The position numbers were made by a program, and so were the translations under genes. A stretch of 61,147 bases of DNA from Candidatus Amulumruptor caecigallinarius (GTDB lineage: Bacteria > Bacteroidota > Bacteroidia > Bacteroidales > Muribaculaceae), in assembly GCA_023665575.1 (NCBI GenBank), contig JAMPDQ010000007.1, positions 1 to 61,147 of the forward strand, read 5' to 3'. Positions 17,193 through 36,464 of the stretch are shown here, piece after piece; within the stretch, counting starts at the first letter, position 1; every line of letters starts with the position of its first letter. The notes under the pieces are model-generated. The model saw only the letters and a program-made list of their open reading frames with translations. It had not been told where the DNA came from and ran no database searches.

Positions 17193-17559
17193 GAAATGTG
17201 CCGCATCCCGCAGTGATGATGCCGCCCAGGTCGGCGAGGAAATCATAAATGTCGCCCGACCTTCCAATTCCCATTGTGCTTTGTGCGTATTCATCAAGCG
17301 CGGAAAAAACAACTATACATATAATGACAGTCGCAAATGTGCCGGCTGTCATTTTTTTTGTGCTTTCTTTGCGTGATTTGCTAAGGTCGTGCATGGCAGT
17401 GACAGTAAGAGTTGCCATCATCAAGGCATGCACAAGTTTGTCGGCATCGTGAAAAAGCGGCAGATTGTTTTCGGGAATGGGGTGGGGAGCAAGAGTAAGC
17501 CAGAGAATAATTGCCGTGGCAGTGGCAGTGAGCCACCAGTTTCTAAGAAACTGTTTCAT
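17167..17559 (-). CDS. VanZ-like small membrane protein
   Basis: A 130-residue protein with about four hydrophobic helices. The pattern matches the VanZ-like family: a first helix with LTLAPHPIPE, HDADKLVHALMMATL (compare the family D-K-xxH), SALDEYAQSTMGIGRSGDIYDFLADLGG with the conserved E-x-x-Q and D-x-x-A-N/D-x-x-G motif, and a final helix. Members include teicoplanin-resistance VanZ, but most are housekeeping membrane proteins of unknown function. The 3' end overlaps the lipoprotein gene tail to tail by 26 bases. Confidence 0.85.
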   Translation of the reverse strand: MKQFLRNWWLTATATAIILWLTLAPHPIPENNLPLFHDADKLVHALMMATLTVTAMHDLSKSRKESTKKMTAGTFATVIICIVVFSALDEYAQSTMGIGRSGDIYDFLADLGGIITAGCGTFLIFSRKNR

Positions 17560-17710
17560 GGGAGACGATATGAAAAAGATTGCAACGGGGTTGTATTTTA
17601 CACTTTTTGGAAATAGTGTATTTGTTTTTACAAAAATAAAAATTGTTGGTCTAAGGGGTTTAATGTTTAAGATTTTTTAACAATTGCATAAAAAGTGAAT
17701 GAATAAATTG

Positions 17711-17741
17711 TTTGCGGATTAGCAAAAATTATCTAATTTTG
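17711..17741 (+). promoter_or_regulatory. Promoter of the nuo-atp unit
   Basis: TTTG (17711-17714), a spacer of exactly 19 bases and TAATTTTG (17734-17741) match the Bacteroidetes primary sigma consensus. Transcription would start near 17748, giving a leader of about 65 bases before nuoA. No equally good promoter was seen in the next 17.5 kb. Confidence 0.88.
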
Positions 17742-17812
17742 TGAATAATTGGCGGCGCATTGTTGGAATGCATCTGCATATAACTGAATAACTGTTTAAA
17801 CATTAGTATTAT

Positions 17813-18184
17813 ATGAATCTGTTGTGCGAGATAAGTAATGGCGTGCTGTCCATCACGGCTCTGCTTACCGGGGTCGGTTTGGTGGTGGCTGCGATGCTAA
17901 TCGCGAAATTGATTTCGCCGAAATCTTATTCGGTAAAGAAAGCCGAGCCTTATGAATGTGGTATTCCTACACGCGGGGAGTCTATGATTCAATTCAGGGT
18001 CGGCTATTATATTTTTGCAATCCTCTTCCTTCTGTTTGATGTCGAGGTTGTGTTTCTTTACCCATGGTCGGTGGTGATGCGCAATATGGGGCCCGGGGGA
18101 ATCCTTTGTATCGGAATATTTATGTTTGTTCTAATTATGGGTCTGGCTTATGCCTGGCGGAAAGGAGCGCTTAAATGGGATTAG
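17813..18184 (+). CDS. nuoA: NADH-quinone oxidoreductase-like subunit A
   Basis: A 123-residue, three-helix membrane subunit of the respiratory complex I family. Hallmarks are [15 protein letters not shown] (about residues 43-57, with the quinone-site loop cysteine) and [26 protein letters not shown]. It overlaps nuoB by 10 bases. First gene of the 18-gene nuo-atp unit. Confidence 0.96.
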
Positions 18185-18789
18185 ATCATATAAAAAGCAT
18201 GAGTCGCGAAGACTTCAAAAACAACGATTATATCGACAAGTTGGTTGAAGAGCTGAATGCGACGGGCGCCAATGTAATGGTTGGCAAATTTGATGAGCTT
18301 ATTAATTGGGGCATCTCCAACTCTTTGTGGCCGTTGTGCTTTGGCACAAGCTGTTGCGCCATCGAGTTTATGAGCCTGGGCGCGGCGCGTTATGACATGG
18401 CACGCTTTGGATTTGAGGTGGCTCGAAATTCACCTCGCCAGGCCGACTATATTATGGTGCAGGGCACAATTGTGCATCGCATGGCGCCGGCGCTTCGCCG
18501 CCTTTATGAGCAGCTCGCCGAGCCGAAATATGTTATTGCATGCGGAGGTTGTGCTGTTTCGGGCGGCCCGTTCAAAAATTCTTACTGTGTTGTTCCCGGT
18601 GTGGATGAAATTCTTCCGGTCGATGTCTATATCCCCGGATGTCCTCCCCGCCCGGAAGCAATGTTTTACGGGCTGATGCAGTTGCAGCGTAAAATAAAGG
18701 TGCAAAAATTCTTCGGCGGGGTGAACCGCAAAGAGAAAGTAGAAGAATTTTTCGCAGAGCATCCTGAGGAAAAGGGTGAGATTGGATAA
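18175..18789 (+). CDS. nuoB: NADH-quinone oxidoreductase-like subunit B (cluster N2)
   Basis: A 204-residue peripheral subunit that holds the terminal 4Fe-4S cluster N2 and passes electrons to quinone. The four ligands are visible: the tandem cysteines in [11 protein letters not shown], the Cys in [12 protein letters not shown] and the Cys in [11 protein letters not shown]. The C-terminal ~25 residues are charged. The start overlaps nuoA, and nuoCD begins 30 bases downstream. Confidence 0.97.
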
Positions 18790-18819
18790 CCGCAAACCGA
18801 TAGATTCTACATATAGACT

Positions 18820-20451
18820 ATGAGTGATTTAAAAGATAAAATCCTGAAGATATATCCGGCGGCTCAGTTTGAAGAGGGTGAGTGCCTGATGGTTACAGTA
18901 GCCGAGAAAGATTGGCTTGAAGTGGCCTCAAAGCTTAAAACAGCCCTCGGTTTCGATGTTTTGTCTGCCGTTGTGGGAATGGATTGGAAGGATAAGCTCG
19001 GTGTGGTGTATTATCTCACTGCCACATTGATGAATTGGGATATGCTCGCTGTGAAAGTGGAAGCTGCCGGTGATGACCGTGATAATGCCTATATACATTC
19101 GGTTTGCTCTCTTTGGAAAGTTGCTAATTTCCAGGAACGCGAGGTCTACGATATGTTCGGCATCAAGTTTGTCGGCCATCCCGACATGCGCCGTTTCTTC
19201 TTGCGCAACGATTGGGTGGGACATCCCCTCCGCAAAGATTATGACACCGACCCGAAGCTCAATCCCATCCGTCTTGACGATGAGATTAATGAGGATGATA
19301 CTCGCTCTTTTTCGTTGGATGAAAACGGGAAGCTGAAAGCAACCCCCGGAAAGGTGTTTGAAAAAAATGATTACGTAGTCAACATAGGTCCGCAGCATCC
19401 CTCCACTCATGGTGTAATGCGTTTTAGAGCTGCAATAGAGGGCGAAACCGTAAAAAAGGTTGATGTTGTTTCCGGCTACATTCATCGTGGCATAGAGAAG
19501 CTCACCGAGGGCATGACTTATCCGCAGATTCTCCATTTCACCGACCGTATGGACTATATGTCGGCTCATCAGAACCGCCATTGTCTTTGCATGTGCATAG
19601 AGAAGGCACTCGGCCTTGAGGTGCCTCATCGCGCTCAGGTGATTCGCACAATGATGGATGAGCTGATGCGAATCTCCTCCCACCTGCTGTCATTTGGATG
19701 CACCGCAATGGATCTTGGCGCCACAACCGCGTTCTTTTACGGATTCCGCGAGCGCGAAATGGTGCTCGATATATTTGAAAAGACATGCGGAGCACGTATG
19801 TCAATGAATTATAATGTGATTGGAGGTGTAATTGCCGACCTTCATCCTGATTTCCGGAAAGATGTGAAGAAACTCATAGATATAATGCCTTCACGTTTGA
19901 AGGAGTATCATGATGTATTCTCCAACAATCTTATCGCCAAGAACCGCCTTGAAGGGGTAGGAATCCTGAAGAAGGAGGATGCCGTCAATTATGCCATCAC
20001 CGGTCCGAGCGGGCGTGGCTCTAACTGGAGTTGTGACTGTCGCAAAAAACACCCATATGCCGCATATCCCGAAGTGGAATTTGATGAGGTGCTCCTCGAT
20101 GGTTGCGACTCATATTCGCGCTATATGGTGCGCATGAAGGAAATTGAGCAGAGTTGTCGAATTCTTGCGCAGCTTGTCGACAATATTCCCGAAGGCGACA
20201 TTAGGGCGCAAGTGCCGAAAGTTGTCAAGCTGCCGGCTGGTCGGTGGTATCAACAGGTAGAGGCAAGCCGCGGCACTTTCGGTGTATACATCGAGAGTGA
20301 CGGGCAGAAGAATCCCTATCGCGTGCATTTCCAGAGCCCGTGCTTCAATCTTGTGGGTGTGATGGATCTTACATGTGCCGGATATATGATTGCCGACCTT
20401 ATCACAATCGGTGCGGCACTCGATTTTGTAATTCCTGATATCGATCGTTGA
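18820..20451 (+). CDS. nuoCD: Fused NADH-quinone oxidoreductase-like subunit C/D
   Basis: A 543-residue fusion of the 30-kDa (NuoC, about 1-155) and 49-kDa (NuoD, about 180-543) subunits, joined by a linker near residues 160-180. The C part shows WKVANFQEREVYDMFGIKFVGHPDMRR. The D part shows NIGPQHPSTHGVMRFRAAIEGE, the quinone-site HPSTHG motif, and GYIHRGIEKLTEGMTYPQ. The fusion is usual in Bacteroidetes and some proteobacteria. No nuoE, F or G follows, so the NADH-oxidising module is absent. Confidence 0.96.
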   Translation: MSDLKDKILKIYPAAQFEEGECLMVTVAEKDWLEVASKLKTALGFDVLSAVVGMDWKDKLGVVYYLTATLMNWDMLAVKVEAAGDDRDNAYIHSVCSLWKVANFQEREVYDMFGIKFVGHPDMRRFFLRNDWVGHPLRKDYDTDPKLNPIRLDDEINEDDTRSFSLDENGKLKATPGKVFEKNDYVVNIGPQHPSTHGVMRFRAAIEGETVKKVDVVSGYIHRGIEKLTEGMTYPQILHFTDRMDYMSAHQNRHCLCMCIEKALGLEVPHRAQVIRTMMDELMRISSHLLSFGCTAMDLGATTAFFYGFREREMVLDIFEKTCGARMSMNYNVIGGVIADLHPDFRKDVKKLIDIMPSRLKEYHDVFSNNLIAKNRLEGVGILKKEDAVNYAITGPSGRGSNWSCDCRKKHPYAAYPEVEFDEVLLDGCDSYSRYMVRMKEIEQSCRILAQLVDNIPEGDIRAQVPKVVKLPAGRWYQQVEASRGTFGVYIESDGQKNPYRVHFQSPCFNLVGVMDLTCAGYMIADLITIGAALDFVIPDIDR

Positions 20452-20512
20452 TATCACACGCGTTGCAATAAATTTCAGAACGGTTATTTATAAATAAAAT
20501 TGAATCGATAAA

Positions 20513-21592
20513 ATGTTTGATTTCGGAAAATGGACATCCGCCTTTAACGACTTCCTTCTTGGAACAGGCATGGCCGAGTGGCTCGCAGTTGTGATTGAAT
20601 GCGTGCTAATCGGTGTTGCCCTGATGGTGATGTATGCCGTGCTGGCGATTTTCTATATCTTCTACGAACGCAAGCTTTGTGCATGGTTTCAATGCCGACT
20701 CGGACCAATGCGTGTCGGCAAATGGGGCTTACTGCAGTTGTTTGCCGATGTGATTAAAATCCTAATCAAGGAGCTTATCAGTCTTAAAGGCACCGACAGA
20801 TTTCTCTTTAAGCTTGCACCCTATCTTGTTATTGCCTCTTCAGTGGTGATGTTTGCATGCCTGCCTTGGGGCAACGGATTGCAAATCATTGATTGGAATA
20901 TCGGAGTGTTCTTTATCCTGGCCGCCTCATCGGTAGGTGTGCTTGGAATTCTGTTGGCAGGTTGGGCATCTAATAATAAATACACACTTATTGGTGCCAT
21001 GCGAAGCGGCGCTCAGATGATTAGTTATGAAATTTCAATCGGTCTGGCTATAATCACTATTGCGTTGTTGGCAGGCTCACTGAATATCTCAACGCTTGTG
21101 CAGGAGCAGGCCGATTGCTGGTTTATATTCAAAGGCCATGTGCCGGCAGTGATTGCTTTTATTATCTATGTAATCGCCGCCACTGCCGAAACAAACCGTG
21201 GACCTTTCGATCTTCCGGAGGCAGAGCATGAGCTTACAGCCGGTTATCACACCGAATATTCCGGTATGCATTTCGGATTTTTCTATCTTGCAGAATATCT
21301 CAACCTGTTCATCGTATCCGGAATTGCTTCGCTGATGTTCCTTGGCGGCTGGATGCCCTTGCATGTGCCGGGTTGGGAGGGGTTTAATGATGTAATGAAT
21401 TATATTCCTTCGATTGTTTGGTTCCTCGGAAAGGCAATCTTCGTATCGTTCATCATTATCTGGTTCAAATGGACATTCCCGCGCGTAAGAATCGACCAGC
21501 TACTGGCCTTTGAATGGAAATATCTCATGCCGTTCGCACTCGCAAATCTTTTACTTATGACTGTGCTGGTGGCTTACGGATGGCATTTTTAA
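20513..21592 (+). CDS. nuoH: NADH-quinone oxidoreductase-like subunit H
   Basis: A 359-residue membrane subunit with about eight helices that joins the quinone chamber to the pumping arm. Conserved blocks are YERKLCAWFQCRLGPMRVG (about 51-69), LLQLFADVIKILIKE, SYEISIGLAIITIALLAGS and AETNRGPFDLPEAEHELTAG (about 224-243). Unexpectedly, the next gene is atpD of the ATP synthase, 137 bases on, rather than nuoI. Confidence 0.96.
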   Translation: MFDFGKWTSAFNDFLLGTGMAEWLAVVIECVLIGVALMVMYAVLAIFYIFYERKLCAWFQCRLGPMRVGKWGLLQLFADVIKILIKELISLKGTDRFLFKLAPYLVIASSVVMFACLPWGNGLQIIDWNIGVFFILAASSVGVLGILLAGWASNNKYTLIGAMRSGAQMISYEISIGLAIITIALLAGSLNISTLVQEQADCWFIFKGHVPAVIAFIIYVIAATAETNRGPFDLPEAEHELTAGYHTEYSGMHFGFFYLAEYLNLFIVSGIASLMFLGGWMPLHVPGWEGFNDVMNYIPSIVWFLGKAIFVSFIIIWFKWTFPRVRIDQLLAFEWKYLMPFALANLLLMTVLVAYGWHF

Positions 21593-23232
<1,640 letters not shown>

Positions 23233-23285
23233 CCAAGCCGCTATATACTTCTAAATGGCCTCTTGGTAGATACAATTTACACAAT

Positions 23286-23522
23286 ATGAAACTCGAAGTT
23301 ATATCAGCCCATGAAGTGACATTTTCCGGAGAAGTGACTTCAGTCACTTTGCCCGGTGTTCTCGGCTCATTCACCGTTTTGAAAGATCATGCGCCTCTGA
23401 TTTCTGTTCTGACAAAGGGAAACATGAAATATACTGATGCACAGGGCGAATCGGGAAATTTTGAGATTGAAGGGGGAATTTGCGATGTGAATAACAACGT
23501 TGTCTCTGTTTGTGTTTATTAA
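23286..23522 (+). CDS. atpC: ATP synthase F1 subunit epsilon (short form)
   Basis: A 78-residue epsilon subunit made only of the N-terminal beta-sandwich (LPGVLGSFTVLKDHAPLIS is the conserved block). The usual C-terminal helical hairpin, which in other bacteria inhibits ATP hydrolysis, is absent. Short epsilon subunits are common in Bacteroidetes, so this is probably native and not a truncation. It implies that hydrolysis control by the epsilon helices is lacking. Confidence 0.93.
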   Translation: MKLEVISAHEVTFSGEVTSVTLPGVLGSFTVLKDHAPLISVLTKGNMKYTDAQGESGNFEIEGGICDVNNNVVSVCVY

Positions 23523-23568
23523 AATTTAATGAAACTTCGCAAGAAGAAATAATTTAACAACCCTGAAG

Positions 23569-24855
23569 ATGTCAAATCTGAACGCACTTCAACGTATGAA
23601 TCGTTATCTTCTCCGTGGCGGAATGTTTGCATGGTTGGTAATTGTATTGGCAATTCTCATCCCTGAGAGTGTCAACGCATCCAATGTCAAACAAGACGAA
23701 ATGGATGTGAAGGAAATCATCTTCGAACATCTCGGCGATGGCTACGGATGGGAAGTGCCTTTCTCTCACAGCCGCAGAATTCCGTTGCCGGTTATTGTTC
23801 GTGCTGAAGATGGCGAATGGTTTTGCTTCAGTTCTGCCCGGCTGACAAAGTTGGTGTCGCATATGGATGAGGCAACAGGCAAGACCCACGAATCTCTTGA
23901 ACCGGTGGTTTACACCACTAACCGCAACGGAAAATCTTATAGTTTCGAAATTGCAACTACCGGTCCCCACAAGGATAAAGTGGTGGAAATCTTCCCGGGG
24001 AGCAATTCCACAAACGAAGGGGAGTATCGCCCATGGGATTTTTCTATCACCAAGAATGTTTGTGCGCTTTTCATAACCATGCTTATCGTAATAGCTGTGG
24101 TTTTAGGGCTAGTGAGATATTACAGGAAAAACAATCTGAAAGCTCCGAGAAAAGGGATGGGCTTCTTTGAGATGCTTGTAGGTTTTGTGTATTATGATGT
24201 AATCAAAGCCACTCTTGGAAAGAAGACAGAGAAATTCGCTCCTTATCTGCTCACAGCCTTCTTCTTCATTCTCACAATGAATCTGGTCGGACTGATTGTG
24301 ATTTTTCCCGGAGGCGCAAACCTTACAGGCAACATAGCAATAACGTTGGTGCTTGCAGTGCTTACGTTTATTATGACAAACGTTTTGGGCACTAAAGACT
24401 ATTGGAAAGAAATATTCTGGCCCGATGTGCCTATCTGGTTGAAATTTCCTCTTCCTATCATGCAGGTAATAGAGGTGTTTGGAATTTTCACCAAGCCTGC
24501 CGCATTGTGCGTGCGTCTGTTCGCCAATATGATGGGAGGCCACATGATTGTGATCACACTCACGTTACTGATATTTATTTTCGCAGCTTTCGGCACAGCC
24601 GCAGCCGGTGGGGCAACTGTGATTTCAGTGCTCTTCTCGCTCTTCATGCTGGCGCTTGATGTGTTAGTCAGCTTTATTCAGGCATATGTATTCACAATGT
24701 TGTCTGCAATGTTCATCGGTGCGGCGCAAGTGCATGAAGATGAACATCATGTGTTGCGTGATGAGCTCGAAGACCAGCCCGACTCTCGCGATCGCGCTGA
24801 GCTGCGGCAAGAAGAAGCCCTGCTTCACACTGAGGCGCAGGCCATAGATAAATAA
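23569..24855 (+). CDS. atpB: ATP synthase Fo subunit a with long N-terminal extension
   Basis: A 428-residue proton-channel subunit. The essential Arg is in PAALCVRLFANMMGGHM (Arg near residue 312). The five or six core helices start near residue 165. Before them lie an apparent signal-like helix (about 16-38) and ~120 periplasmic residues with no match I know, and at the end an acidic, His/Glu-rich tail of ~45 residues. The N-terminal extension is seen in Bacteroidetes, but this one is on the long side. No atpI precedes it. Confidence 0.94.
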   Translation: MSNLNALQRMNRYLLRGGMFAWLVIVLAILIPESVNASNVKQDEMDVKEIIFEHLGDGYGWEVPFSHSRRIPLPVIVRAEDGEWFCFSSARLTKLVSHMDEATGKTHESLEPVVYTTNRNGKSYSFEIATTGPHKDKVVEIFPGSNSTNEGEYRPWDFSITKNVCALFITMLIVIAVVLGLVRYYRKNNLKAPRKGMGFFEMLVGFVYYDVIKATLGKKTEKFAPYLLTAFFFILTMNLVGLIVIFPGGANLTGNIAITLVLAVLTFIMTNVLGTKDYWKEIFWPDVPIWLKFPLPIMQVIEVFGIFTKPAALCVRLFANMMGGHMIVITLTLLIFIFAAFGTAAAGGATVISVLFSLFMLALDVLVSFIQAYVFTMLSAMFIGAAQVHEDEHHVLRDELEDQPDSRDRAELRQEEALLHTEAQAIDK

Positions 24856-24913
24856 TCGAAGTCGAATTTTGAAGAATAATAAAACGAATTAAATAAACAA
24901 TTAAAAAAACTGA

Positions 24914-25174
<261 letters not shown>

Positions 25175-25241
25175 AAGGCAGATTAATTATGGGGAGAGTT
25201 GCTGCAACTCTCCCCGAATATAAACGTATAAAAGTTCTGTT

Positions 25242-25736
25242 ATGGAATTATTCACGCCCGATTTTGGCCTGGTGTTCTGGATGTTCGTATCGTTCATTCT
25301 ATTATTCCTCGTCCTTGCGAAATGGGGATGGCCTGTTATCATTAAAATGATGGACAAGCGTGCCGACACCATCGACCAGGGTGTGGAAGATGCCCGGAAT
25401 GCCAGGGAGCAGCTTGATAATGCAAGGGCTGAAGCGCAAAAATATGTGAAAGATGCTCAGGCACAACAAGCTGAAATGCTTCGCGAAGCCGCAAAAATGA
25501 AGTCGGAAATAATTGAAGAGGCCCGTAAAGAAGCACAAAGTGCTGCTAAAAAGGAGATGGATGCCGCAAAGATGGCCATCGAACAGGCCCGCAAGGAAGC
25601 CGAGCTTTCATTCAGAGATGAAGTGAGTCGATTCTCAATCGATATCGCAGAGAAAATGATGCGCCGGAATATGAATAACGATAAGGCTCAGACCGAACTT
25701 GTTAATAAGCTTCTGGACGAAATAGAGAAAAATTAA
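25242..25736 (+). CDS. atpF: ATP synthase Fo subunit b
   Basis: A 164-residue peripheral-stalk subunit: one N-terminal membrane helix (about residues 5-27, FGLVFWMFVSFILLFLVLAK) and a long Ala/Glu/Lys/Gln coiled coil. Bacterial b subunits dimerise through this coil and hold the delta subunit at the C-terminus. The gene ends 5 bases before atpH. Confidence 0.96.
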   Translation: MELFTPDFGLVFWMFVSFILLFLVLAKWGWPVIIKMMDKRADTIDQGVEDARNAREQLDNARAEAQKYVKDAQAQQAEMLREAAKMKSEIIEEARKEAQSAAKKEMDAAKMAIEQARKEAELSFRDEVSRFSIDIAEKMMRRNMNNDKAQTELVNKLLDEIEKN

Positions 25737-25741
25737 AAGGC

Positions 25742-26284
25742 ATGACTTCCGGATTGATTCCTCACCGATATGCAATGGCATTATATAAATATGCCGGCGA
25801 AAACAACCAACGCAAAGATGTTTATGGCATCATGAAGACAGTGGCTGAAGCCTTTCGCTCCAACCCGGATCTTGAAAAAGTGCTGTCTAACCCATATGTT
25901 CACACCGATGACAAGAGAAAACTCCTTCTCTCTGCCGCAGGCGAGAATCCGGGCGATGACTATGTTCGCTTTGTACAACTTGTGCTTGACCATAAGCGTG
26001 AAGAGTTCATGTATATGATGTCTCTTGCATACGGCGACATTTACCGCACTGAAAACAACATCTCGCAAGTCAAAATCACCACAGCCTCCGAACTCCCGGA
26101 TATAGAGTTGCAGAAACTTCGCGGCGTGGTTGAGAAATCATTCAAGGGAGAAACTTTTGAATATAGTTATGCTATTGACCCCGACCTCATAGGCGGATTC
26201 GTTATCGATGTTGATTCCACCCGAATGGATGCATCGATTAGCAATGAACTTGAACAATTACGACAAAACCTAACAAGCAATTAA
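25742..26284 (+). CDS. atpH: ATP synthase F1 subunit delta
   Basis: A 180-residue stalk subunit. The N-terminal helical domain begins [16 protein letters not shown], the family-typical opening. The C-terminal end has [25 protein letters not shown], matching the conserved G-G-x-x-x-x-x-x-x-x-x-D-x-S block. It caps the F1 head and binds subunit b. Four bases separate it from atpA. Confidence 0.95.
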
Positions 26285-26288
26285 TAAG

Positions 26289-27881
26289 ATGCTTAATCCC
26301 AGCGAAATATCAGATGTTCTGAAACAAGAACTTGAGAACATCAATTCTAAAGTGAAATTTGAAGAAGTGGGCACTGTGCTCAACGTCGGTGATGGTGTTG
26401 CGCATGTTTATGGTCTTGACAACGTTCGAAGCAATGAATTGGTAGAGTTTGAGAACGGCGCCAAGGGTGTCGCCCTTAACCTTGAGGAGAGCAATGTCGG
26501 CGTTGTGCTCCTTGATAAGGTGAATTCTATCACTGAGAATATGTCGGTGAAGCGCACGGGACAAGTGGCTTCCATACCCGTAGGGGAGGGCTTGCTCGGT
26601 CGCGTCATAAATATGCTCGGTGAGCCTATCGATGGTAAAGGCCCCATCGAAGGAGAGCGTATCCTGCTGCCTCTTGAGCGCAAGGCTCCCGGTGTTATTT
26701 TCCGTCAACCGGTGAATCAACCGTTGCAAACCGGTATCAAGGCTATAGATGCCATGATTCCTATCGGTCGCGGTCAGCGCGAGCTGATTATCGGTGACCG
26801 TCAGGTGGGCAAAACTGCCATCGCAGTTGATACCATCATCAATCAGAAAGAAAATTATGACAAGGGTCAGCCCGTATATTGTATCTATGTGGCAATCGGA
26901 CAAAAAGCCTCAACTGTGGCATCTATCGTGCACACCTTGGAGAAATATGGCGCAATGGCTTACACGGTAGTCGTAGCGGCCAATGCTTCTGACTCCTCGT
27001 CAATGAGATATTATGCTCCCTTTGCAGGCGTTGCAATCGGAGAATTCTTCCGTGATTCAGGTCGTGACGCCTTGATTGTATACGATGACTTGTCGAAACA
27101 GGCCGTGGCATATCGTGAGGTCTCACTTATCTTGAAGCGCCCATCCGGACGTGAAGCTTACCCGGGCGATATCTTCTATCTCCACTCGCGTCTGCTGGAA
27201 CGTGCCGCTAAAATTAATGCCGACCAAAAAGTGGCAGAAAATATGAACGACCTTCCGGAAGTGATGAAATCTCGCGTGAAGGGCGGTGGATCTCTTACTG
27301 CGCTCCCGATTATTGAAACGCAAGCGGGCGATGTCTCGGCTTATATCCCGACCAATGTGATTTCAATCACCGATGGACAGATATTTCTCGAAACTGCTCT
27401 CTTCAACCAAGGTATTCGCCCCGCCATTAATGTGGGTATATCTGTGTCTCGTGTAGGTGGTAATGCACAGATTAAATGTATGAAGAAAGTGGCCGGCACT
27501 CTTAAAATAGCGCAGGCACAGTATCGAGAGCTTGAATCGTTCACCAAATTTGGCGGCGATATAGACCCTGTAACTGCAGCCACCATAGACCGTGGGCGCA
27601 AAAATCAGCAGATTCTTGTGCAGCCGCAGTATAATCCATGGCCCGTTGAACAGGAGGTAGCTGTGATTTATTGCGGTGTTAACGGACTCCTTGAGAATGT
27701 TCCCATCGAGAAAGTGAAAGAATTTGAACAGCAGCTTATCACGCGTCTTAAGATGAATGCACAAAAAGAAGTGCTGGATGTGCTGAAATCTGGCAAGCTC
27801 ACTGCCGAGTGCGAGGAAAAACTCACAGCATGCGCTCGTGAGGTGGCTGATATGATTAGTGCTGACACTGCAAAAAATTGA
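26289..27881 (+). CDS. atpA: ATP synthase F1 subunit alpha
   Basis: A 530-residue regulatory nucleotide-binding subunit. The P-loop GDRQVGKT lies near residue 172, followed by [15 protein letters not shown] and the arginine-finger region in [14 protein letters not shown] (about 384-397). It alternates with beta in the F1 hexamer. Length is slightly above the ~510 of E. coli, as usual in Bacteroidetes. Confidence 0.98.
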
Positions 27882-27910
27882 GATATTCGCTAACGGCAAT
27901 ATTATATTAA

Positions 27911-28798
27911 ATGGCAACGCTAAGAGAATTAAAGACAAGAATCGGGTCGGTTGCATCTACTGAGAAAATCACCGGCGCGATGAAAATGATCTCCTCTGCA
28001 AAGGTGCATCAAAGCGAGCAATCGCTTCGCAAGTTGCAGCCGTTTAAGGATAAGATCAAGTCGATTATGGGGCACATTTTGTCCACCGATATGAATTTCA
28101 ACTCATCGCTCATTGAGGCTCGCGAAGTCAAGAGAGCGGCTGTCGTTGTGTTTGGTTCCGATGACGGACTCTGCGGTGCCTATAACATCAATATCCTGAA
28201 GGGATTTTTGATTAAGATTGACGAGTTGCGCAATACACATGGCTCTGATATCGACATTGACGTGTATCCGGTCGGCAAAAAAATGCTGAAGGCAGTGAAG
28301 CGTCTCAGCGACCCTCATATGCATGTAATCACCATGGAGGGTGTAGACAGCAAAATGTTGGGCGAGAAAGTCAATGAATTCACCAAGATTCTCAGAGACC
28401 GTTTTATCCGCGGGGATGTGGATATTGTAGAAGTGGTGTACATGCGTTATTATTCCATGAGCAAACAAAGGCTGACAGAAGATCAGCTTTTCCCGGTGGT
28501 TGAGGAGCAACTTCGTGACGGACTGCCCGACATTTCCGATAATCAGCTTTATATTTTCGAGCCGGATGCCAACAGTATTTTCAATGAGGTGTTGCCGATG
28601 TTTGTTTTGTCGATGATGCAAGAAATAACAATTGAGAACCGCAGCTCCGAGCAAGCGGCCAGGGTTATGGCAATGCAGAGTGCAAATGATAATGCAAAGG
28701 ATCTTCTCGAACAGTTGCAGCTTGAATATAATAAGTTGCGTCAGCAAAACATCACCACCGAACTTCTTGATATTCTGGGCGGTCAGGTGGAGAGGTAA
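27911..28798 (+). CDS. atpG: ATP synthase F1 subunit gamma
   Basis: A 295-residue rotor shaft. The two coiled-coil ends are conserved: ATLRELKTRIGSVASTEKIT at the N-terminus with AMKMISSAKVHQ, and SSEQAARVMAMQSANDNAKD near residue 255 at the C-terminus. GSDDGLCGAYNINI is the usual central block. Last atp gene; nuoI starts only 44 bases later with no terminator between. Confidence 0.97.
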   Translation: MATLRELKTRIGSVASTEKITGAMKMISSAKVHQSEQSLRKLQPFKDKIKSIMGHILSTDMNFNSSLIEAREVKRAAVVVFGSDDGLCGAYNINILKGFLIKIDELRNTHGSDIDIDVYPVGKKMLKAVKRLSDPHMHVITMEGVDSKMLGEKVNEFTKILRDRFIRGDVDIVEVVYMRYYSMSKQRLTEDQLFPVVEEQLRDGLPDISDNQLYIFEPDANSIFNEVLPMFVLSMMQEITIENRSSEQAARVMAMQSANDNAKDLLEQLQLEYNKLRQQNITTELLDILGGQVER

Positions 28799-28842
28799 CT
28801 TTTCAGAACGATATAGGATAAGAAAGATACACATTAATTAGA

Positions 28843-29457
28843 ATGAGTAATATATTAGATTATTTCAAATCTGTCGGACAAGGCGTAAAAAGCCTCCTTG
28901 TGGGCATGGGCGTCACCGGAAAAGAACTCGTAACTCCCAAAGTCACCGAGCAATATCCCGAGAATCGCGCAACGCTTCAGATTGCTGACCGTTTCAGGGC
29001 CGAACTGACTCTTATTTATGACGCGGAAGGGCATCATAAATGCATTGCATGTGGAATATGTCAGATGAATTGCCCCAATGGCACCATCAAGCTTGAAACA
29101 AAGATGGTTGACATGCCTGACGGAAAAAAGAAGCGCAAGCTCGACAAATATTTCTATGACCTTGGAAGTTGCACATTTTGCATGTTGTGTGTCACCACAT
29201 GCCCGCAGCATGCATTGGAATTCTCCAATGATTTCGAACAGGCTGTTTTTGAGCGCGACAAATTGATTAAAAAACTCAATTATCGTCCGGAGCCGGAAGG
29301 AGAGCCTGTGGCTCCGCCCAAACCGGCCATGGATCCCGAGCAGCTCGCAAAGATAAAAGCCGAAGCTCTTAAAAAGGCTGCTGCAATAAAGGCTGCTAAA
29401 GAGGCCGCTGCAAAAGAGGCTGCTGCAAACGTAGACGGCAAGACGGCTGAAAATTAA
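28843..29457 (+). CDS. nuoI: NADH-quinone oxidoreductase-like subunit I (2 x 4Fe-4S)
   Basis: A 204-residue ferredoxin-like subunit carrying clusters N6a and N6b. The motifs are CIACGICQMNCP (about residues 67-78) and CTFCMLCVTTCP (about 110-121). After residue ~150 comes a low-complexity Pro-, then Ala/Lys-rich helix (KAEALKKAAAIKAAKEAAAK) not present in E. coli NuoI. With NuoE/F/G missing, this subunit or its surroundings is the likely entry point for electrons from ferredoxin or flavodoxin; that is inference. Confidence 0.96.
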   Translation: MSNILDYFKSVGQGVKSLLVGMGVTGKELVTPKVTEQYPENRATLQIADRFRAELTLIYDAEGHHKCIACGICQMNCPNGTIKLETKMVDMPDGKKKRKLDKYFYDLGSCTFCMLCVTTCPQHALEFSNDFEQAVFERDKLIKKLNYRPEPEGEPVAPPKPAMDPEQLAKIKAEALKKAAAIKAAKEAAAKEAAANVDGKTAEN

Positions 29458-29484
29458 AAATTATAATCAAACAACAACTTTATA

Positions 29485-30012
29485 ATGGATTCTGTAGCAA
29501 ATATAATCTTGTATTTTGTGGTAGCGGCCATTGTCTGTATTTTTTCTGTGATGACAGTGGTGTCGCGCAAAATACTTAGAGCAGCGACATATCTGCTGTT
29601 TGTGCTCCTCGGAAGTTCGGTGTTCTATTTCCAACTCGGATTCCAATTTCTCGGAGCTGTGCAGATAGCGGTATATGCGGGCGGCATAATGGTGCTGTTT
29701 GTTTTTGCAATCCTGCTCACACATCATCCGGACGAGAAATCTCCTTTGCTAGATTCTCACCGCCGCACACTCGGGGTGATTACCGCTGTGCTTGGCGCGG
29801 CATTGCTCACAGTCGCTGTGTTCACAATGCCAGTGCTCCATGGTCTGTCACTGACAGAATGCATATCTGCCGGCAGAGAGATAACGATGCAGGATATCGG
29901 CCGCGCGTTTACCGGCACCGAAAAATTTCAGTATCTGCTTCCTTTCGAGGCAATCAGTGTGCTTCTTCTTGCATGTATAATCGGCGGCGTCACTGTGGCC
30001 CGCAAAAGATAA
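29485..30012 (+). CDS. nuoJ: NADH-quinone oxidoreductase-like subunit J
   Basis: A 175-residue, five-helix membrane subunit. SRKILRAATYLLFVLLGSSV and QLGFQFLGAVQIAVYAGGIM (about 50-69) hold the conserved helix-3 pattern linked to the pi-bulge in complex I. It is followed 9 bases later by nuoK. Confidence 0.94.
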   Translation: MDSVANIILYFVVAAIVCIFSVMTVVSRKILRAATYLLFVLLGSSVFYFQLGFQFLGAVQIAVYAGGIMVLFVFAILLTHHPDEKSPLLDSHRRTLGVITAVLGAALLTVAVFTMPVLHGLSLTECISAGREITMQDIGRAFTGTEKFQYLLPFEAISVLLLACIIGGVTVARKR

Positions 30013-30021
30013 ACAACAATA

Positions 30022-30333
30022 ATGGACCTGACAATACTTTGGTATCTTGTGCCGAGCATAGTGATGTTCGCATGCGGCGTTTACGGGTTTATCACTCGTA
30101 AGAATATGATTGCGCTTCTCCTCTCGCTTGAGCTTATGCTCAATTCCGCCGATTTGAATTTCGTTGTGTTCAATCGTTTCTTGTTTCCCGGATCTATGGA
30201 GGGAATGGTTTTCACATTGTTTGCCATTGCCATTGCGGCTGCTGAAACTGCCATCGCAATCGCGATTGTGGTCAATATTTATCGCAAGGTGGGCAATTCT
30301 GATATTAACTCTGTAAAACAAATGAAATTCTAA
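30022..30333 (+). CDS. nuoK: NADH-quinone oxidoreductase-like subunit K
   Basis: A 103-residue, three-helix membrane subunit, homologous to the MrpC antiporter subunit. Conserved acidic residues stand in LLLSLELMLNSADLNFV (about Glu36) and AIAAAETAIAIAIVVNIYR (about Glu72), the two carboxylates of the proton path. One base separates it from nuoL. Confidence 0.95.
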   Translation: MDLTILWYLVPSIVMFACGVYGFITRKNMIALLLSLELMLNSADLNFVVFNRFLFPGSMEGMVFTLFAIAIAAAETAIAIAIVVNIYRKVGNSDINSVKQMKF

Positions 30334-30334
30334 A

Positions 30335-32323
30335 ATGGGAATTACTCTTCCAATATTGATTCTGGCCATACCTTTCACAATGTTTCTTGTGCTGGGTATC
30401 GGCGGAGTGAAGATGAGCAGAAAGCTCGCCGGCCTGCTTGGCATCGTGGCCAACGGCACACTCGCCGTGCTGGCTTATTATGTGGCGTTCACTTATTTCT
30501 TCTCAGGCGATGAAGCTTTCATCAGCGCGGAGGGTGTGCGCAAGCAGTTGGAATTGTTTGATGTCACGTGGCTTGCATTCACCGACCGACTTGTTGTCAA
30601 CATCGGATTTATCCTGGATCCCATTTGTGCCATGATGCTTGTGGTGATTACCACAATTTCATTTATGGTGCATCTCTACAGTTGGGGATATATGGAGCAT
30701 GAGCCCGGATTCCAGCGCTATTATGCTTTTCTTGCTTTGTTCACATTCTCGATGCTCGGCCTCGTTGTGGCAACAAATATTTTCCAGATGTATATTTTCT
30801 GGGAGCTTGTGGGTGTGTCGTCTTATCTGCTTATCGGATTCTTCTATAAGTTGCCGTCGGCTGTGTCAGCCTCTAAAAAGGCCTTTATTGTGACGCGTTT
30901 CGCCGACTTGTTCATGCTTATCGGAATCCTTGTGCTCTCATATTGTGTGGCGCAGACACCTGCTGATGGCCCTCTCGGCAGCGCATCTGCATTCAATTTC
31001 CTGATGCTTGATTCGCACCCCACCAATGTGCTCGCCTCTACACTTGGCTCCACATTCCTTGGCGGCTCTGTGCTTACCTGGGCAATGATTCTTATTTTTG
31101 TCGGCGGTATGGGTAAATCTGCCATGATGCCCCTTCATATATGGCTTCCCGATGCCATGGAGGGTCCGACCCCTGTATCGGCATTGATTCATGCTGCAAC
31201 AATGGTTGTGGCAGGTGTATATCTCGTGGCACGTTTCTTCCCTCTATTCTGCATAGTGCCGGATTCGCTGGATTTCATAAGCATTGTCGGCGCAATTACA
31301 GCCTTCTATGCAGCGGTTGTTGCTTGTGCACAGATCGATATCAAGAGAATCCTTGCATTCTCTACAATTTCGCAGATAGCATTCATGATGGTATCGCTTG
31401 GTTGCGCTTACAATCAGCCCATAGAGGGTGTGCACTATTCCGGTTTGGGATATATGGCAGGAATGTTCCATCTCTTTACACATGCAATGTTCAAGGCATT
31501 GCTATTCCTTGGAGCGGGAGCGTTGATTCATGCTGTGCACAGTAATAATTACACTGAGATGGGTGGTCTGCGCAAATATATGCCAATCACCCACTGGACA
31601 TTTCTCATCGGGTGTCTTGCAATTGCAGGTATCCCCCCCTTCTCGGGATTCTTCTCAAAAGACGAAATGCTCGCAGCGATGTTCAACCGTCATATATTCT
31701 ATGGAGTCTGGATGACAATGGTCGCCGGTTTGACTGCATTCTATATGTTCCGTATGTATTTCCTCGTGTTCTGGTGGGAAGTGAACCCCAAATATTCACA
31801 TGAGGGACACAAACCGCATGATGCCCCCTGGCAGATGTCTCTTCCGCTGATTATCCTGGCGGCTGTGTCGTGCGTTGCCGGTTTCATCCCGTTCGGAAAG
31901 CTTGTCACATTCAATGGTGAGCCTTATAATATAGAGCTTGAGCTTCCTGTGGCCATCACATCTATAGCAGTGGCAGTAGCGGCTATCGTTCTGGCAACGG
32001 TGATGTATGCGCGTAAAAATCCTGTTCCATCAAAAATACGTCAGGCTGTGCCGGGACTTTGGACAGCGGCCAATCGTCGTTTCTATTGGGATGAGATTTA
32101 CATGTTTGTGACGCATAAGATTATCTTTAACATAATCTGCCGCGGAATCGCATGGTTTGACCGTCACATCATCGACGGCACTATGGATGCGCTTGCAGCT
32201 ATGACACAATATTTCTCTGTCAAAATCAAAGGCATGCAGAATGGAAGTGTCCAGACTTATGTGACATGGTATATTCTCGGAGCAATCGCTCTTTCTGTAA
32301 TAACTTGGATTTGTATATTATAA
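30335..32323 (+). CDS. nuoL: NADH-quinone oxidoreductase-like subunit L
   Basis: A 662-residue antiporter-like pump subunit with about 15-16 helices and the C-terminal lateral helix. Conserved features are FWELVGVSSYLLIGFFY (the helix-5 Glu), GKSAMMPLHIWLPDAMEGPTP, SALIHAATMVVAGVYL and KRILAFSTISQIAFMM. Its stop is directly followed by the nuoM frame. Confidence 0.97.
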   Translation: MGITLPILILAIPFTMFLVLGIGGVKMSRKLAGLLGIVANGTLAVLAYYVAFTYFFSGDEAFISAEGVRKQLELFDVTWLAFTDRLVVNIGFILDPICAMMLVVITTISFMVHLYSWGYMEHEPGFQRYYAFLALFTFSMLGLVVATNIFQMYIFWELVGVSSYLLIGFFYKLPSAVSASKKAFIVTRFADLFMLIGILVLSYCVAQTPADGPLGSASAFNFLMLDSHPTNVLASTLGSTFLGGSVLTWAMILIFVGGMGKSAMMPLHIWLPDAMEGPTPVSALIHAATMVVAGVYLVARFFPLFCIVPDSLDFISIVGAITAFYAAVVACAQIDIKRILAFSTISQIAFMMVSLGCAYNQPIEGVHYSGLGYMAGMFHLFTHAMFKALLFLGAGALIHAVHSNNYTEMGGLRKYMPITHWTFLIGCLAIAGIPPFSGFFSKDEMLAAMFNRHIFYGVWMTMVAGLTAFYMFRMYFLVFWWEVNPKYSHEGHKPHDAPWQMSLPLIILAAVSCVAGFIPFGKLVTFNGEPYNIELELPVAITSIAVAVAAIVLATVMYARKNPVPSKIRQAVPGLWTAANRRFYWDEIYMFVTHKIIFNIICRGIAWFDRHIIDGTMDALAAMTQYFSVKIKGMQNGSVQTYVTWYILGAIALSVITWICIL

Positions 32324-32344
32324 TTGTCGCAAAATAACTTGATT

Positions 32345-33862
32345 ATGTTATTCGGAAATATATTAATTTGGTTTGTAGTAATTCCCATCCTGATGATGGC
32401 GGGACTTGCATGTTGCGGCAACGGCAATATGAAGGCCATCCGCACAGTGATGGTGACATGTTCCACCGTGTTGCTTGGAATGGCGATATGGCTTGTGTGT
32501 GATTTTCTGGCTCTGCGGGCCGCAGGTGAAACTGCCGCCATGCTCTACACCGGCAGTTGGATGTGGTATGAGCCTCTGAATATACATCTCGCTGTAGGTG
32601 TTGACGGAATTTCCGTGCTGATGTTGCTTCTTTCAGCCATCATCGTGTTTGCCGGAACATTCGCCTCATGGAAGATAGATCCTCTGCCAAAGAACTTCTT
32701 TTTGTGGTTTGCGTTGCTTTCCACAGGTGTATTCGGTTTCTTTATCTCCATCGACATGTTCACCATGTTCATGTTCTATGAAGTGGCATTGATTCCGATG
32801 TATCTTTTAATTGGCGTTTGGGGCACGGGACGCAAGGAATATTCAGCCATGAAGCTCACGCTGATGCTTATGGGAGGTTCAGCCTTTCTTATGCTCGGCT
32901 TGCTCGGCATTTATTGGCACAGTGCTCCTGAAGGGGAAGTGCTCACGTGGAATATTCTTGAAATTGCAAATAATAACGCAATTGACCCATCATGGCAGAA
33001 TCTTCTGTTTTGTTTCACATTTGTAGGATTCGGTGTGCTTGGCGCAATGTTCCCCTTCCACACATGGAGCCCTGATGGTCACGCATGCGCTCCGACTGCA
33101 GTGTCAATGCTTCATGCAGGCGTGTTGATGAAGCTTGGAGGCTACGGATGTTTCCGCATTGCAATCTTCCTGCTTCCCTCTGCAGCACAGGAACTCTCCT
33201 GGATATTCATTATCCTTACAGGCATAAGCATTGTTTATGGTGCTTTCTCCGCGTGTGTGCAGACCGACTTGAAATATATCAACGCATATTCATCGGTGTC
33301 ACACTGCGGCATGGTGCTTTTCGCAATTCTGATGTTGAATCAAACTGCGATGACGGGTGGTATTCTGCAAATGTTGAGCCATGGTTTGATGACAGCCCTC
33401 TTCTTTGCACTCATAGGTATGATATACGGCCGCACACACACACGCGATATCCGTCAAATGGGAGGCATGATGAAGATAATGCCATATCTCGGTGTATGCT
33501 ACATGATTGCCGGTTTCGCATCGCTCGGACTTCCGGGTATGTCAGGCTTTGTTGCCGAGATGACCATCTTCTTCGGTGCTTTTGAAAACAGCGACTTGTT
33601 CCATAGAATATTTGTTATAGCAGCAACATGCTCGATTGTAATCACCGCAGTCTATATCCTGCGGGTGGTTGGCAAACTTATTCTCGGACCTGTGCAGGAC
33701 GAGCATCATCTCAAGCTCACTGATGCCACATGGTGGGAGCGTCTCTCCACAGTGACTCTAATAGCGTGTCTCGCCGGAATCGGATTCTTCCCCAACTGGA
33801 TTAATGACACAATTCGCGAAAGTTTCGTGCCAATTATCAACGCACTTAATTCGGCAATCTAA
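32345..33862 (+). CDS. nuoM: NADH-quinone oxidoreductase-like subunit M
   Basis: A 505-residue antiporter-like pump subunit (14 helices). The conserved carboxylate lies in MFMFYEVALIPMYLLIGVWG, followed by FPFHTWSPDGHACAPTAVSM, LHAGVLMKLGGYG and KYINAYSSVSHCGMVL. The start chosen is the ATG at 32345. A TTG directly after the nuoL stop (32324) would add seven residues and is the alternative. Confidence 0.95.
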   Translation: MLFGNILIWFVVIPILMMAGLACCGNGNMKAIRTVMVTCSTVLLGMAIWLVCDFLALRAAGETAAMLYTGSWMWYEPLNIHLAVGVDGISVLMLLLSAIIVFAGTFASWKIDPLPKNFFLWFALLSTGVFGFFISIDMFTMFMFYEVALIPMYLLIGVWGTGRKEYSAMKLTLMLMGGSAFLMLGLLGIYWHSAPEGEVLTWNILEIANNNAIDPSWQNLLFCFTFVGFGVLGAMFPFHTWSPDGHACAPTAVSMLHAGVLMKLGGYGCFRIAIFLLPSAAQELSWIFIILTGISIVYGAFSACVQTDLKYINAYSSVSHCGMVLFAILMLNQTAMTGGILQMLSHGLMTALFFALIGMIYGRTHTRDIRQMGGMMKIMPYLGVCYMIAGFASLGLPGMSGFVAEMTIFFGAFENSDLFHRIFVIAATCSIVITAVYILRVVGKLILGPVQDEHHLKLTDATWWERLSTVTLIACLAGIGFFPNWINDTIRESFVPIINALNSAI

Positions 33863-33900
33863 CATTTCTGAAACAATAGACAACAAGACAACAAGAAATA

Positions 33901-35352
33901 ATGGATTATTCACAATTTGGGGCAATGGTGCCCGAACTCATAATTCTTGGATTGTTTTTCATCGTGTTCATTTTTGACACCTTTGCCAACGGTCCCAAGA
34001 AATGGCTGACGCCTATGACAGCAGTGCTGTTTGGCATTGCCACTGTGGCTATATGGATAATTCCTTCGAGCGGCGTTGAGGCGTTCGCGGGGATGTATGT
34101 CGATAATACGGCGTGCAAGGCAATGAAGGCCATCCTGAATGTTGGTGTTTTTATCGTGATTCTGCAATCATCGAAATGGGCTTTGAGCGAGGAAATCGCT
34201 ATAAGGAGGGGAGAGTTCTATGAGTTGTTGCTCGTTACACTCTTCGGAATGTATCTGATGATTTCCGCTCGCCATTTCTTGATTTTCATAATAGGGCTTG
34301 AGGCGGCATCGCTTCCGCTTGCTGCTTTGGTTGCATTCAACAAGCATCAGTATGAAAGCCATGAGGCCGCTATCAAATATATTCTGACAGCTGTGTTCTC
34401 ATCTGCTATATTATTGATGGGATTGTCGCTCGTGTATGCATTCTCTGGCAATGGTTCGCTCTATTTTGATGACATTCGCGCAGCAATCACCGGAGTCAAC
34501 CCCTCGGGATTGCTTATTGCTGCGGTGGCTTTTGTGATTGCCGGTATCGGTTTCAAACTGTCTCTGGTTCCTTTCCATTTGTGGACTGCTGATGTTTATG
34601 AAGGTGCACCCACTGCAATCACAGGTTATCTCTCGGTTATCTCCAAGGGTGCCGCAGCATTCGCATTCTTTGTGATTTTTGTGCAGGCTTTCGGCCCTCT
34701 GTATGAGGGGATGTGGGAATGGATGATGTATGCAGTGATAATTGCCACTATCACTGTCGGCAACTTGTTTGCCATCCGACAGAAAAACATGAAACGATTC
34801 ATGGCTTTCTCATCAATTTCCCAAGCCGGATATATCATGCTGGGTGTGATGACTGAATCTTCTCTCGGACTTGCTTCCATGATGTATTACATATTTGTAT
34901 ATGTAGTGAGCAATCTTGCAGTGTTCAGCGTGATTTCTGCAGTTGAGAACAAAACAGGTAAAGTGGGTATGACCGATTACGATGGTCTGCACAAAACGAA
35001 TCCTTGGCTGTCGTTTGCCATGACGCTTGCAATGTTCTCACTTGCCGGAATTCCTCCGTTTGCCGGATTCTTCAGCAAGATCTTGATTTTTACATCAGTG
35101 ACAGCCTCTAATTCGATGGCATTGTATATGCTCGTGCTTATAGCATTAATCAATACAATCGTGTCTCTCTATTATTATCTGCTTGTGGTGAAAGCAATCT
35201 GGATTAATCCCGGCGAAGCCAAAGTGGAGCAGTTCCGCAGCTCATGTGGCGAGAGAATGGCTCTTTGGATATGTGTTGCAGGCATCGTATTCTTCGGCAT
35301 TGTGCCGTGTATATATCAATACTGTGTTAATGCAGCGCTCCCAATGTTCTGA
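33901..35352 (+). CDS. nuoN: NADH-quinone oxidoreductase-like subunit N
   Basis: A 483-residue antiporter-like pump subunit. Family blocks are LEAASLPLAALVAFNKH (about residues 131-147, with the key Glu), GIGFKLSLVPFHLWTADVYEGAPT, MKRFMAFSSISQAGYIMLGV and SLAGIPPFAGFFSK. It is the last gene of the 18-gene unit and is followed by a strong terminator. Confidence 0.96.
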   Translation: MDYSQFGAMVPELIILGLFFIVFIFDTFANGPKKWLTPMTAVLFGIATVAIWIIPSSGVEAFAGMYVDNTACKAMKAILNVGVFIVILQSSKWALSEEIAIRRGEFYELLLVTLFGMYLMISARHFLIFIIGLEAASLPLAALVAFNKHQYESHEAAIKYILTAVFSSAILLMGLSLVYAFSGNGSLYFDDIRAAITGVNPSGLLIAAVAFVIAGIGFKLSLVPFHLWTADVYEGAPTAITGYLSVISKGAAAFAFFVIFVQAFGPLYEGMWEWMMYAVIIATITVGNLFAIRQKNMKRFMAFSSISQAGYIMLGVMTESSLGLASMMYYIFVYVVSNLAVFSVISAVENKTGKVGMTDYDGLHKTNPWLSFAMTLAMFSLAGIPPFAGFFSKILIFTSVTASNSMALYMLVLIALINTIVSLYYYLLVVKAIWINPGEAKVEQFRSSCGERMALWICVAGIVFFGIVPCIYQYCVNAALPMF

Positions 35353-35378
35353 TAACAGAGTTGAAATTATAAAGAGTG

Positions 35379-35416
35379 AGTGGGACTCCTGATTTAAGGA
35401 GCCCCACTCTTTTTTT
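35379..35416 (+). terminator. Terminator of the nuo-atp unit
   Basis: AGTGGGACTCCT (35379-35390) pairs with AGGAGCCCCACT (35397-35408), 11 of 12 pairs, followed by seven T (35410-35416). It lies 26 bases after nuoN and 4 bases before the end of the convergent glycosyltransferase gene, and may stop both directions. Confidence 0.9.
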
Positions 35417-35420
35417 ACAA

Positions 35421-36464
35421 TTATTGATGTTGCATAAATTTGTTAAGGAAGGGTTTGAGCCGGGAATAAACCTCTGACACGGTGATTTTCTGATAGGCAT
35501 CGGTAATATCGCATTCATGCGGATTATGCCCGGAATCAATATCGCTCACTGTTAAACACACGGCAGTTTCACTCTCTTTTACCCATAGACCTTTAGGAAT
35601 TGTCGGACTCCCAATCACAAAAGATGGTGTGCCCATCGATTCCACAATATGCCTTGCGCCGCCCTCATTGCCGAAATATGCATCAGAAAATGTGGCAAGA
35701 CACATCAGTTCACGCATGCTTTTAGCTTTGACATGAAAAAATATATTGTCCGGTTTGCCAAGTGTTTCATACATCGTCAGTGCTTTCTTTTCCTCATGAC
35801 CGGGAGCATAATTGAATATGAGTTGTGCTGTAGGGAAATCTTCCATAATTTTTGTAAGCGATTCGCACATCCTGTCGGCGGCCCATTCTTTGTCGTCATC
35901 CTTGGTGACAACTCCACATAGAAGCACCGGCCTGTTAAAATCAATGCCTGATTCTGTTAAATATTTCCGGTAGGCATCAAGTTCTTCATTGGTCACCGCG
36001 AGCGACATGCGCACATTCAAATCAAGCTGTTTGATCTTAGACAGGGGAGAGAGCAGATTCACATCATGGACACACATATTGCCGGAGATGCATTCGTTGA
36101 ACCGATAATTGAAGAAAGGGAGGGTGTATTTTTTATCAATACCTATCCTGAATCTGCAACTTGGAGCAAACATAGTGAATGGGAGAGTGTTGAGAGTGGA
36201 ACGCATATCTATAATAACATCATATTTTTCACTGCGCATGATTCTGAAGATTTTCTTCAAATATTTCAGCGGCGAGTGCCTTTCTTCTTTAGAGAAGGTG
36301 ATGAGTCGGTTGATTGCCGGATGTCCCTCAAACAGAGGAGCGATGTTGTCGTTCAAGACAAAATGAGTTTCGCTGTCAGGGAAATTATTTTTAATGGCAT
36401 TCAGCAAGCTTGTGGAGAGAATAGCGTCTCCCATTTGTCTGAAACGTATAACAAGAAATTTCAT
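35421..36464 (-). CDS. Glycosyltransferase family 9 (heptosyltransferase-like)
   Basis: A 347-residue cytoplasmic GT-B enzyme that would add a heptose or similar sugar to lipopolysaccharide core or another glycan. The N-terminal FLVIRFRQMGDAILSTSLL is the GT9 signature. The C-terminal half has YFGNEGGARHIVESMGTPSF, matching the conserved T/N-x-x-G-x-x-H-x-A block with the nucleotide-sugar site. The start chosen is MKFLVIRF at 36464; an upstream ATG would add 11 residues not typical of the family. A TAATTTTG box on the minus strand (36524-36517) could be its -7 element. Confidence 0.9.
   Translation of the reverse strand: MKFLVIRFRQMGDAILSTSLLNAIKNNFPDSETHFVLNDNIAPLFEGHPAINRLITFSKEERHSPLKYLKKIFRIMRSEKYDVIIDMRSTLNTLPFTMFAPSCRFRIGIDKKYTLPFFNYRFNECISGNMCVHDVNLLSPLSKIKQLDLNVRMSLAVTNEELDAYRKYLTESGIDFNRPVLLCGVVTKDDDKEWAADRMCESLTKIMEDFPTAQLIFNYAPGHEEKKALTMYETLGKPDNIFFHVKAKSMRELMCLATFSDAYFGNEGGARHIVESMGTPSFVIGSPTIPKGLWVKESETAVCLTVSDIDSGHNPHECDITDAYQKITVSEVYSRLKPFLNKFMQHQ

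Follow-up and report, generated by a model that had tools for sequence, protein, structure and literature searches.

Introduction

Integration of an F-type ATP synthase in the complex I locus was described by Ormerod et al. in 2016 for family S24-7; the portion of that report used here lists 26 genomes with ATP synthase and one genome devoid of both complex I and ATP synthase (PMC4936053). The nuo genes of Bacteroides fragilis are BF638R_0850-0841, ten locus tags in a run (PMC7002350, in the part used here), and Prevotella is reported, in the sections drawn on here, to possess a complex I that lacks NuoEFG, together with NQR and an ATP synthase driven by protons (PMC6560451). Among the excerpts on which we rely, nesting of the two gene sets is described in PMC4936053, and those of PMC7002350, PMC6560451, PMC7143216, PMC8219983, PMC5927463 and PMC7366714 make no mention of it. 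The nested arrangement is real, old and already reported for the family.

Here we analyze such a locus in a 61,147-nucleotide stretch of DNA from Candidatus Amulumruptor caecigallinarius (hereafter, the window). An earlier note, made from the sequence alone, described an ATP synthase operon nested within the nuo cluster and could not say whether this order was known in a whole family; as the 2016 report demonstrates (PMC4936053, in the part used here), it was. We compare the locus with its relatives, gene by gene, and examine the signals that might govern its transcription.

Results

Gene content and order of the locus

The cluster consists of 18 intact open reading frames (ORFs) on the plus strand, spanning 17.5 kb (17813-35352), in the order nuoA-B-CD-H, atpD-C-B-E-F-H-A-G, nuoI-J-K-L-M-N. 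For each of the 18 the top NCBIfam match is the expected subunit, with several scoring below the curated cut-off of their particular model; gene order and identities thus agree with the earlier note. The first nuo block comprises nuoA (17813-18184), nuoB (18175-18789), a nuoCD fusion (18820-20451) and nuoH (20513-21592). It is followed by atpD, encoding F1 beta (21730-23232), atpC (epsilon, 23286-23522), atpB (a subunit, 23569-24855), atpE (c subunit, 24917-25174), atpF (b subunit, 25242-25736), atpH (delta, 25742-26284), atpA (F1 alpha, 26289-27881) and atpG (gamma, 27911-28798). The second nuo block includes nuoI (28843-29457), nuoJ (29485-30012), nuoK (30022-30333), nuoL (30335-32323), nuoM, which has a TTG start in the ORF list (32324-33862), and nuoN (33901-35352).

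The nuoH-atpD gap measures 137 bases, the largest in the cluster, and the atpG-nuoI gap 44 bases, exactly as had been claimed. The remaining 15 intergenic gaps range from -10 to 67 bases, and several neighbours overlap or almost touch. The junctions had also been described as free of terminators, repeats and transposon scars. This held with respect to a terminator, as the nuoH-atpD gap harbors no hairpin with a T-tract, and calls for a slight qualification with respect to repeats, as there is an inverted repeat without T-tract at about 21680-21710 on the plus strand (whole-gap z -2.0). We considered whether this junction carries a mobile repeat and rejected the idea, since bases 21600-21729 compared with their own genome gave, besides themselves, just five weak partial matches, the best of 28 bases (E 7e-4). 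Likewise, a conserved nuoH-atpD hairpin was dismissed as a family feature, given a mean z of -0.17 over 72 gaps of at least 40 bases.

All eight F-type ATP synthase subunits are present in the window. The epsilon subunit (78 residues) is restricted to the N-terminal beta-sandwich domain, without the C-terminal helical domain, and scores just below its TIGR cut-off, while the a subunit carries 168 residues ahead of the conserved Pfam domain. Sodium-type c subunits have Ser or Thr after the carboxylate Glu; at this position AtpE reads LIEGVALF, with no Ser or Thr following the Glu.

NuoA, B, CD and H to N are all found in the cluster by NCBIfam, and nuoE, nuoF and nuoG are absent from it. Furthermore, the window's genome, which is 94% complete, has no match to PF01257 (NuoE) or to PF10589 (C-terminal domain of NuoF); each of these models matches in 7 of 14 control genomes. 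The predicted complex I is a headless, 11-subunit enzyme. The missing NuoE and NuoF matches suggest that NADH is probably oxidised elsewhere and that complex I is probably fed by a donor other than NADH; the genome carries one NqrB/RnfD-type gene outside the cluster. Electron supply from another donor has been argued for the B. fragilis complex I (PMC7002350, in the part used here). A separate case of reduced gene content was seen in a 1.2-Mb genome from the order, in which nuoA to nuoK were found and the fetched stretch gave no nuoL, nuoM or nuoN match.

Distribution among relatives

The closest named NuoH match, at 85%, bears the name Muribaculaceae; names further down the list of 80 include Porphyromonadaceae, Prevotellaceae, Bacteroides, Prevotella and Bacteroidales, which we regard as imprecise labels of assembled genomes. 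Among the best 80 of 338 NuoH loci, which served as the set of named genomes, nuoH is followed by atpD in 79 and atpG by nuoI in 67, and those without a junction stop at a contig end first. In a family sample of 119 genomes, the window's own included, NuoH is followed on its own strand, at a distance of 5.8-6.9 kb, by AtpG (nested spacing) in 100. In the other 19 genomes the locus is interrupted, by contig ends in 18 and next to stretches of N in one. The nuoH-atpD junction occurs in 14 of these 19, the atpG-nuoI junction in 13 and at least one of the two in 17; two end within about 140 bases of nuoH. No differing gene order was found among the pieces of all 19. In one of them, a 99% complete genome, the cluster breaks inside atpF, which we considered as a true rearrangement and discarded: the break lies beside runs of N and the pieces share AtpF residues 40-53, so we read it as a scaffolding artefact.

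For the order we used 139 genomes and kept NuoH matches at E 5.4e-78 or better (53 of 86 matching genomes), excluding weaker ones as likely hydrogenase relatives and placing AtpG for the 53 alone. Forty-six of the 53 also have AtpG, and nested spacing is present in 9 of the 46, in seven family groups. The full 18-gene order is identical in all 7 genomes fetched from the six of these groups other than the window's own. The other 37 of the 46 were called as lacking nested spacing from coordinates; for 14 of them the nuo region was retrieved, and some of the rest may be affected by contig breaks. Sixteen nuo loci without nesting were retrieved from the order, and in each of them nuoI adjoins nuoH. 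Outside the order, 69 genomes of the phylum were sampled; both genes passed the thresholds applied in 63 of them, and nested spacing was found in none of the 63. The earlier note had proposed comparing nuo and atp order across Bacteroidales, and had described the two as separate loci in Bacteroides; the comparison puts nested spacing in 9 of 46 genomes, and the description fits both the ten-tag nuo run of B. fragilis (PMC7002350, in the part used here) and the 16 non-nested loci.

Two further arrangements were observed. In genome G223, the source of one of the 16 non-nested loci, the nuo and atp clusters are convergent and separated by about 11 kb, which is perhaps a neighbour state of the nested one. 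In one genome from outside the order, atpG precedes nuoH by about 8.5 kb, with both genes on one strand, and is not nested.

Origin of the nested arrangement

Each tree came from a quick search over 23-25 rows and was rooted on a single selected genome; some rows drew warnings for being long or gappy. Eight nested rows fall on one side of a branch in the rpoC tree (SH-aLRT 97), and nine nested rows do so in the NUO tree (SH-aLRT 93). In the ATP tree, whose rows were taken with score cut-offs and several of whose loci lack atpD, nested rows group with support of 100, with the non-nested G223 included in an unresolved fork; this tree therefore does not show one origin. Two of the three trees thus support a single origin. 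The eight atp genes form one run, atpD-C-B-E-F-H-A-G, in four fetched non-nested relatives (L126, L130, L156 and L170), and nine others have atpB-E-F-H-A-G with atpD-C not adjoining. The simplest history would be that a whole, intact atp operon was inserted at the boundary of nuoH and nuoI.

Promoter and terminator

The Bacteroidetes promoter consensus consists of a -7 element, TAnnTTTG, and a TTTG around -33 (PMC7366714, in the part used here). Scanning the plus strand from 17001 to 36000 with TTTG-N19-21-TAnnTTTG returned a single full match, TTTG-N19-TAATTTTG at 17711-17741, about 70 bases upstream of nuoA, and this is the promoter that had been singled out as the only clear one. A terminator, previously placed at 35379, is likewise predicted after nuoN: the hairpin at 35378-35409, with its surroundings, folds at -25.5 kcal/mol (z -5.8) and is followed by seven T. 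It lies between nuoN and a convergent, glycosyltransferase-like gene on the minus strand (35421-36497).

We examined whether these signals recur in relatives, using a looser form of the motif in the 300-base stretches upstream of each gene and comparing the counts with shuffled sequence. All counts over loci given here are of loci related by descent and hence not independent. Upstream of nuoA the motif is found in 48 of 81 loci (shuffled mean 1.8), and in 41 of these 48 it starts 99-114 bases before the gene. Corresponding counts are 2 of 87 upstream of atpD (shuffled 1.5) and 1 of 75 upstream of nuoI (shuffled 0.2). The looser motif was not found upstream of nuoA in 33 of the 81 loci, among them four of the seven from other families (L115, L117, L119 and L120), and even the -7 part was not found in 11. 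The -7 motif shows a slight excess upstream of nuoI (14 of 75 loci versus 4.5 expected), which we set aside as a promoter signal, 10 of the 14 sites lying inside atpG at scattered places.

An energy-based terminator scan, from which one locus was left out because too little sequence follows its nuoN, showed that 19 of 21 loci carry a hairpin with T-tract within the 200 bases that follow nuoN, as against 1 of 21 in one shuffle; a stricter scan for perfect stems found 5 of 21 and missed the window's own terminator. No such structure occurs in the nuoH-atpD gap of any of 87 loci. In the atpG-nuoI gap a hairpin with a T-rich stretch is found in 10 of 75 loci, and these may be partial terminators in a minority of relatives; examples occur in L005, L061, L064, L069, L072 and L074. 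The window's own atpG-nuoI gap gave no stable fold. When length-matched 200-base stretches reaching into the next gene were scanned, hairpins with T matched in 17 of 87 loci after nuoH and 13 of 75 after atpG, the examples being mostly weaker folds (-9 to -14 kcal/mol). Together, the promoter and terminator counts in relatives support one promoter and one terminator, and the cluster is most likely a single transcription unit. The signals in the window and those of its relatives thus speak for the one promoter and one terminator that the earlier note had suggested.

Hairpins between atp genes

Folding of the gaps within the atp part revealed a near-perfect hairpin without T-tract between atpE and atpF of the window (25188-25218, plus strand). 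The gap folds at -22.7 kcal/mol (z -4.1), and none of 200 shuffles was as good. A strong stem is likewise present in this gap in L006, L007 and L008.

In relatives the commonest position is another one. A long stem between atpA and atpG is found in 27 of 75 loci, as against 2 in one shuffle, and the next commonest stem-bearing junctions reach 8 of 87 and 7 of 78. These atpA-atpG stems begin a median of 15 bases after the atpA stop, and a T-rich stretch (at least 5 T in the 8 bases after the stem) follows in 2 of the 27. Gaps of at least 40 bases at this junction have z below -2 in 34 of 38 cases; shorter gaps, including those of the window and of other families, are mostly without such a stem. 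The hairpins are long, GC-rich and variable in sequence at a similar place after the atpA stop, for example L018:8753-8855, L035:17238-17353 and L054:17296-17372. We aligned eight loci picked by eye for likeness (seven of the 27, and L048); in this uncertain alignment 7 of 13 consensus pairs change on both sides with pairing kept, and the covariation term is small (-0.72).

In an established type of operon control, stem-loops that lie between cistrons and lack poly(U) stabilise the segment upstream of them, and Clostridium ATP synthases are among the predicted cases (PMC8219983, in the part used here). Stem-loops without poly(U), the mark of selective RNA processing and stabilization (SRPS) operons, were found here at atpE-atpF of the window and at atpA-atpG in nearly all of the 27 loci. 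Such hairpins might lower gamma relative to alpha, or b relative to c.

Discussion

Our data are best explained, with a probability of roughly 85%, if this is the usual nuo-atp locus that Muribaculaceae and related Bacteroidales have inherited. According to this reading, which draws on sequence comparison, a headless nuo operon received an atp operon of eight genes, still intact, between its nuoH and nuoI. This most likely happened a single time, before several families split from one another, and the arrangement was then kept. Transcription would most likely run from the promoter before nuoA to the terminator after nuoN, and the products would be a complex I that is headless and probably pumps protons, and an F-type ATP synthase that draws on the gradient. 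Differences in subunit amounts would most likely be established post-transcriptionally, through translation and, in many relatives, also through the hairpins that separate atp genes.

The same gene order could in principle arise otherwise. We give next to no weight to an assembly chimera or a recent transposition, as the order is identical in many independent assemblies; one of these, from the same family, is a single 3.3-Mb contig, so the junctions are no product of chimeric assembly. Alternatively, the three blocks may adjoin one another yet be transcribed separately, from internal promoters ahead of atpD and nuoI that escape a consensus scan. In favour of this, the window's nuoH-atpD gap is the longest among 87 loci, and sigma-70-type matches between 17000 and 36500 on both strands number 50 versus 33.8 (sd 5.3) in shuffled sequence, although this is not the main promoter type of the phylum. 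Against separate units, the phylum's own motif is frequent before nuoA (48/81), at chance before atpD (2/87 versus 1.5) and rare before nuoI (1/75 versus 0.2), and hairpins with T-tract are absent from all 87 nuoH-atpD gaps, so we consider this arrangement improbable.

A further proposal, put forward in the earlier note, accepts the single message and holds that it fixes the ratio of pump to ATP synthase, selection for this ratio keeping the genes nested. Nested spacing in seven family groups and the comparative support for one promoter and one terminator agree with it. Yet 37 of the 46 genomes in the order sample are without nested spacing (contig breaks being possible in some), and retention may follow from shared ancestry alone. 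A shared message by itself does not fix protein ratios, since the machine has unequal subunit copies, and the strong intercistronic hairpins, chiefly at atpA-atpG (27/75), could separate upstream from downstream amounts, so that segment levels could differ. With a headless complex I and hairpins between atp genes in many relatives, the claim is unproven, and we regard it as doubtful. A bolder extension of the inherited-locus reading is that the nested operon arose once, in a clade comprising at least seven Bacteroidales families, and that its long message is cut by species-specific hairpins placed behind the ATP synthase subunits of high copy number (between alpha and gamma in many relatives, between c and b in the window), with RNA processing, and not the shared promoter, setting the amounts of pump and synthase. 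This we offer as a tentative idea, on which we would not bet at even odds.

In the nuo-atp locus, the proton pump and the enzyme that makes ATP in an abundant family of gut bacteria share a single stretch of DNA, so that both can be lost in one deletion. Being old and widespread, the locus lends itself to testing whether co-transcription is important in bioenergetics, and the hairpins provide a concrete hypothesis for how unequal subunit amounts arise in a long operon.

Compared with described systems, as far as the portions of the reports cited here go, the B. fragilis nuo operon (BF638R_0850-0841) is likewise headless, without nuoEFG, and no atp genes are mentioned within it (PMC7002350). 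The headless NDH-I of Prevotella is likewise a complex I without NuoEFG; unlike for the present locus, its gene order is not given in that portion (PMC6560451). SRPS operons of Clostridium share with the nuo-atp locus the intercistronic stem-loops without poly(U) within operons, but those were tested by RNA sequencing, whereas ours are predicted folds in another phylum (PMC8219983). The closest match is the locus of S24-7 ('Ca. Homeothermaceae', Muribaculaceae), which shares both the 11-subunit complex I without NuoEFG and the integrated ATP synthase (PMC4936053). To that report, in the part used here, the present analysis adds the gene-by-gene order across relatives, the spread over seven family groups within and beyond the family, with a likely single origin, the promoter and terminator with their comparative support, and the intercistronic hairpins.
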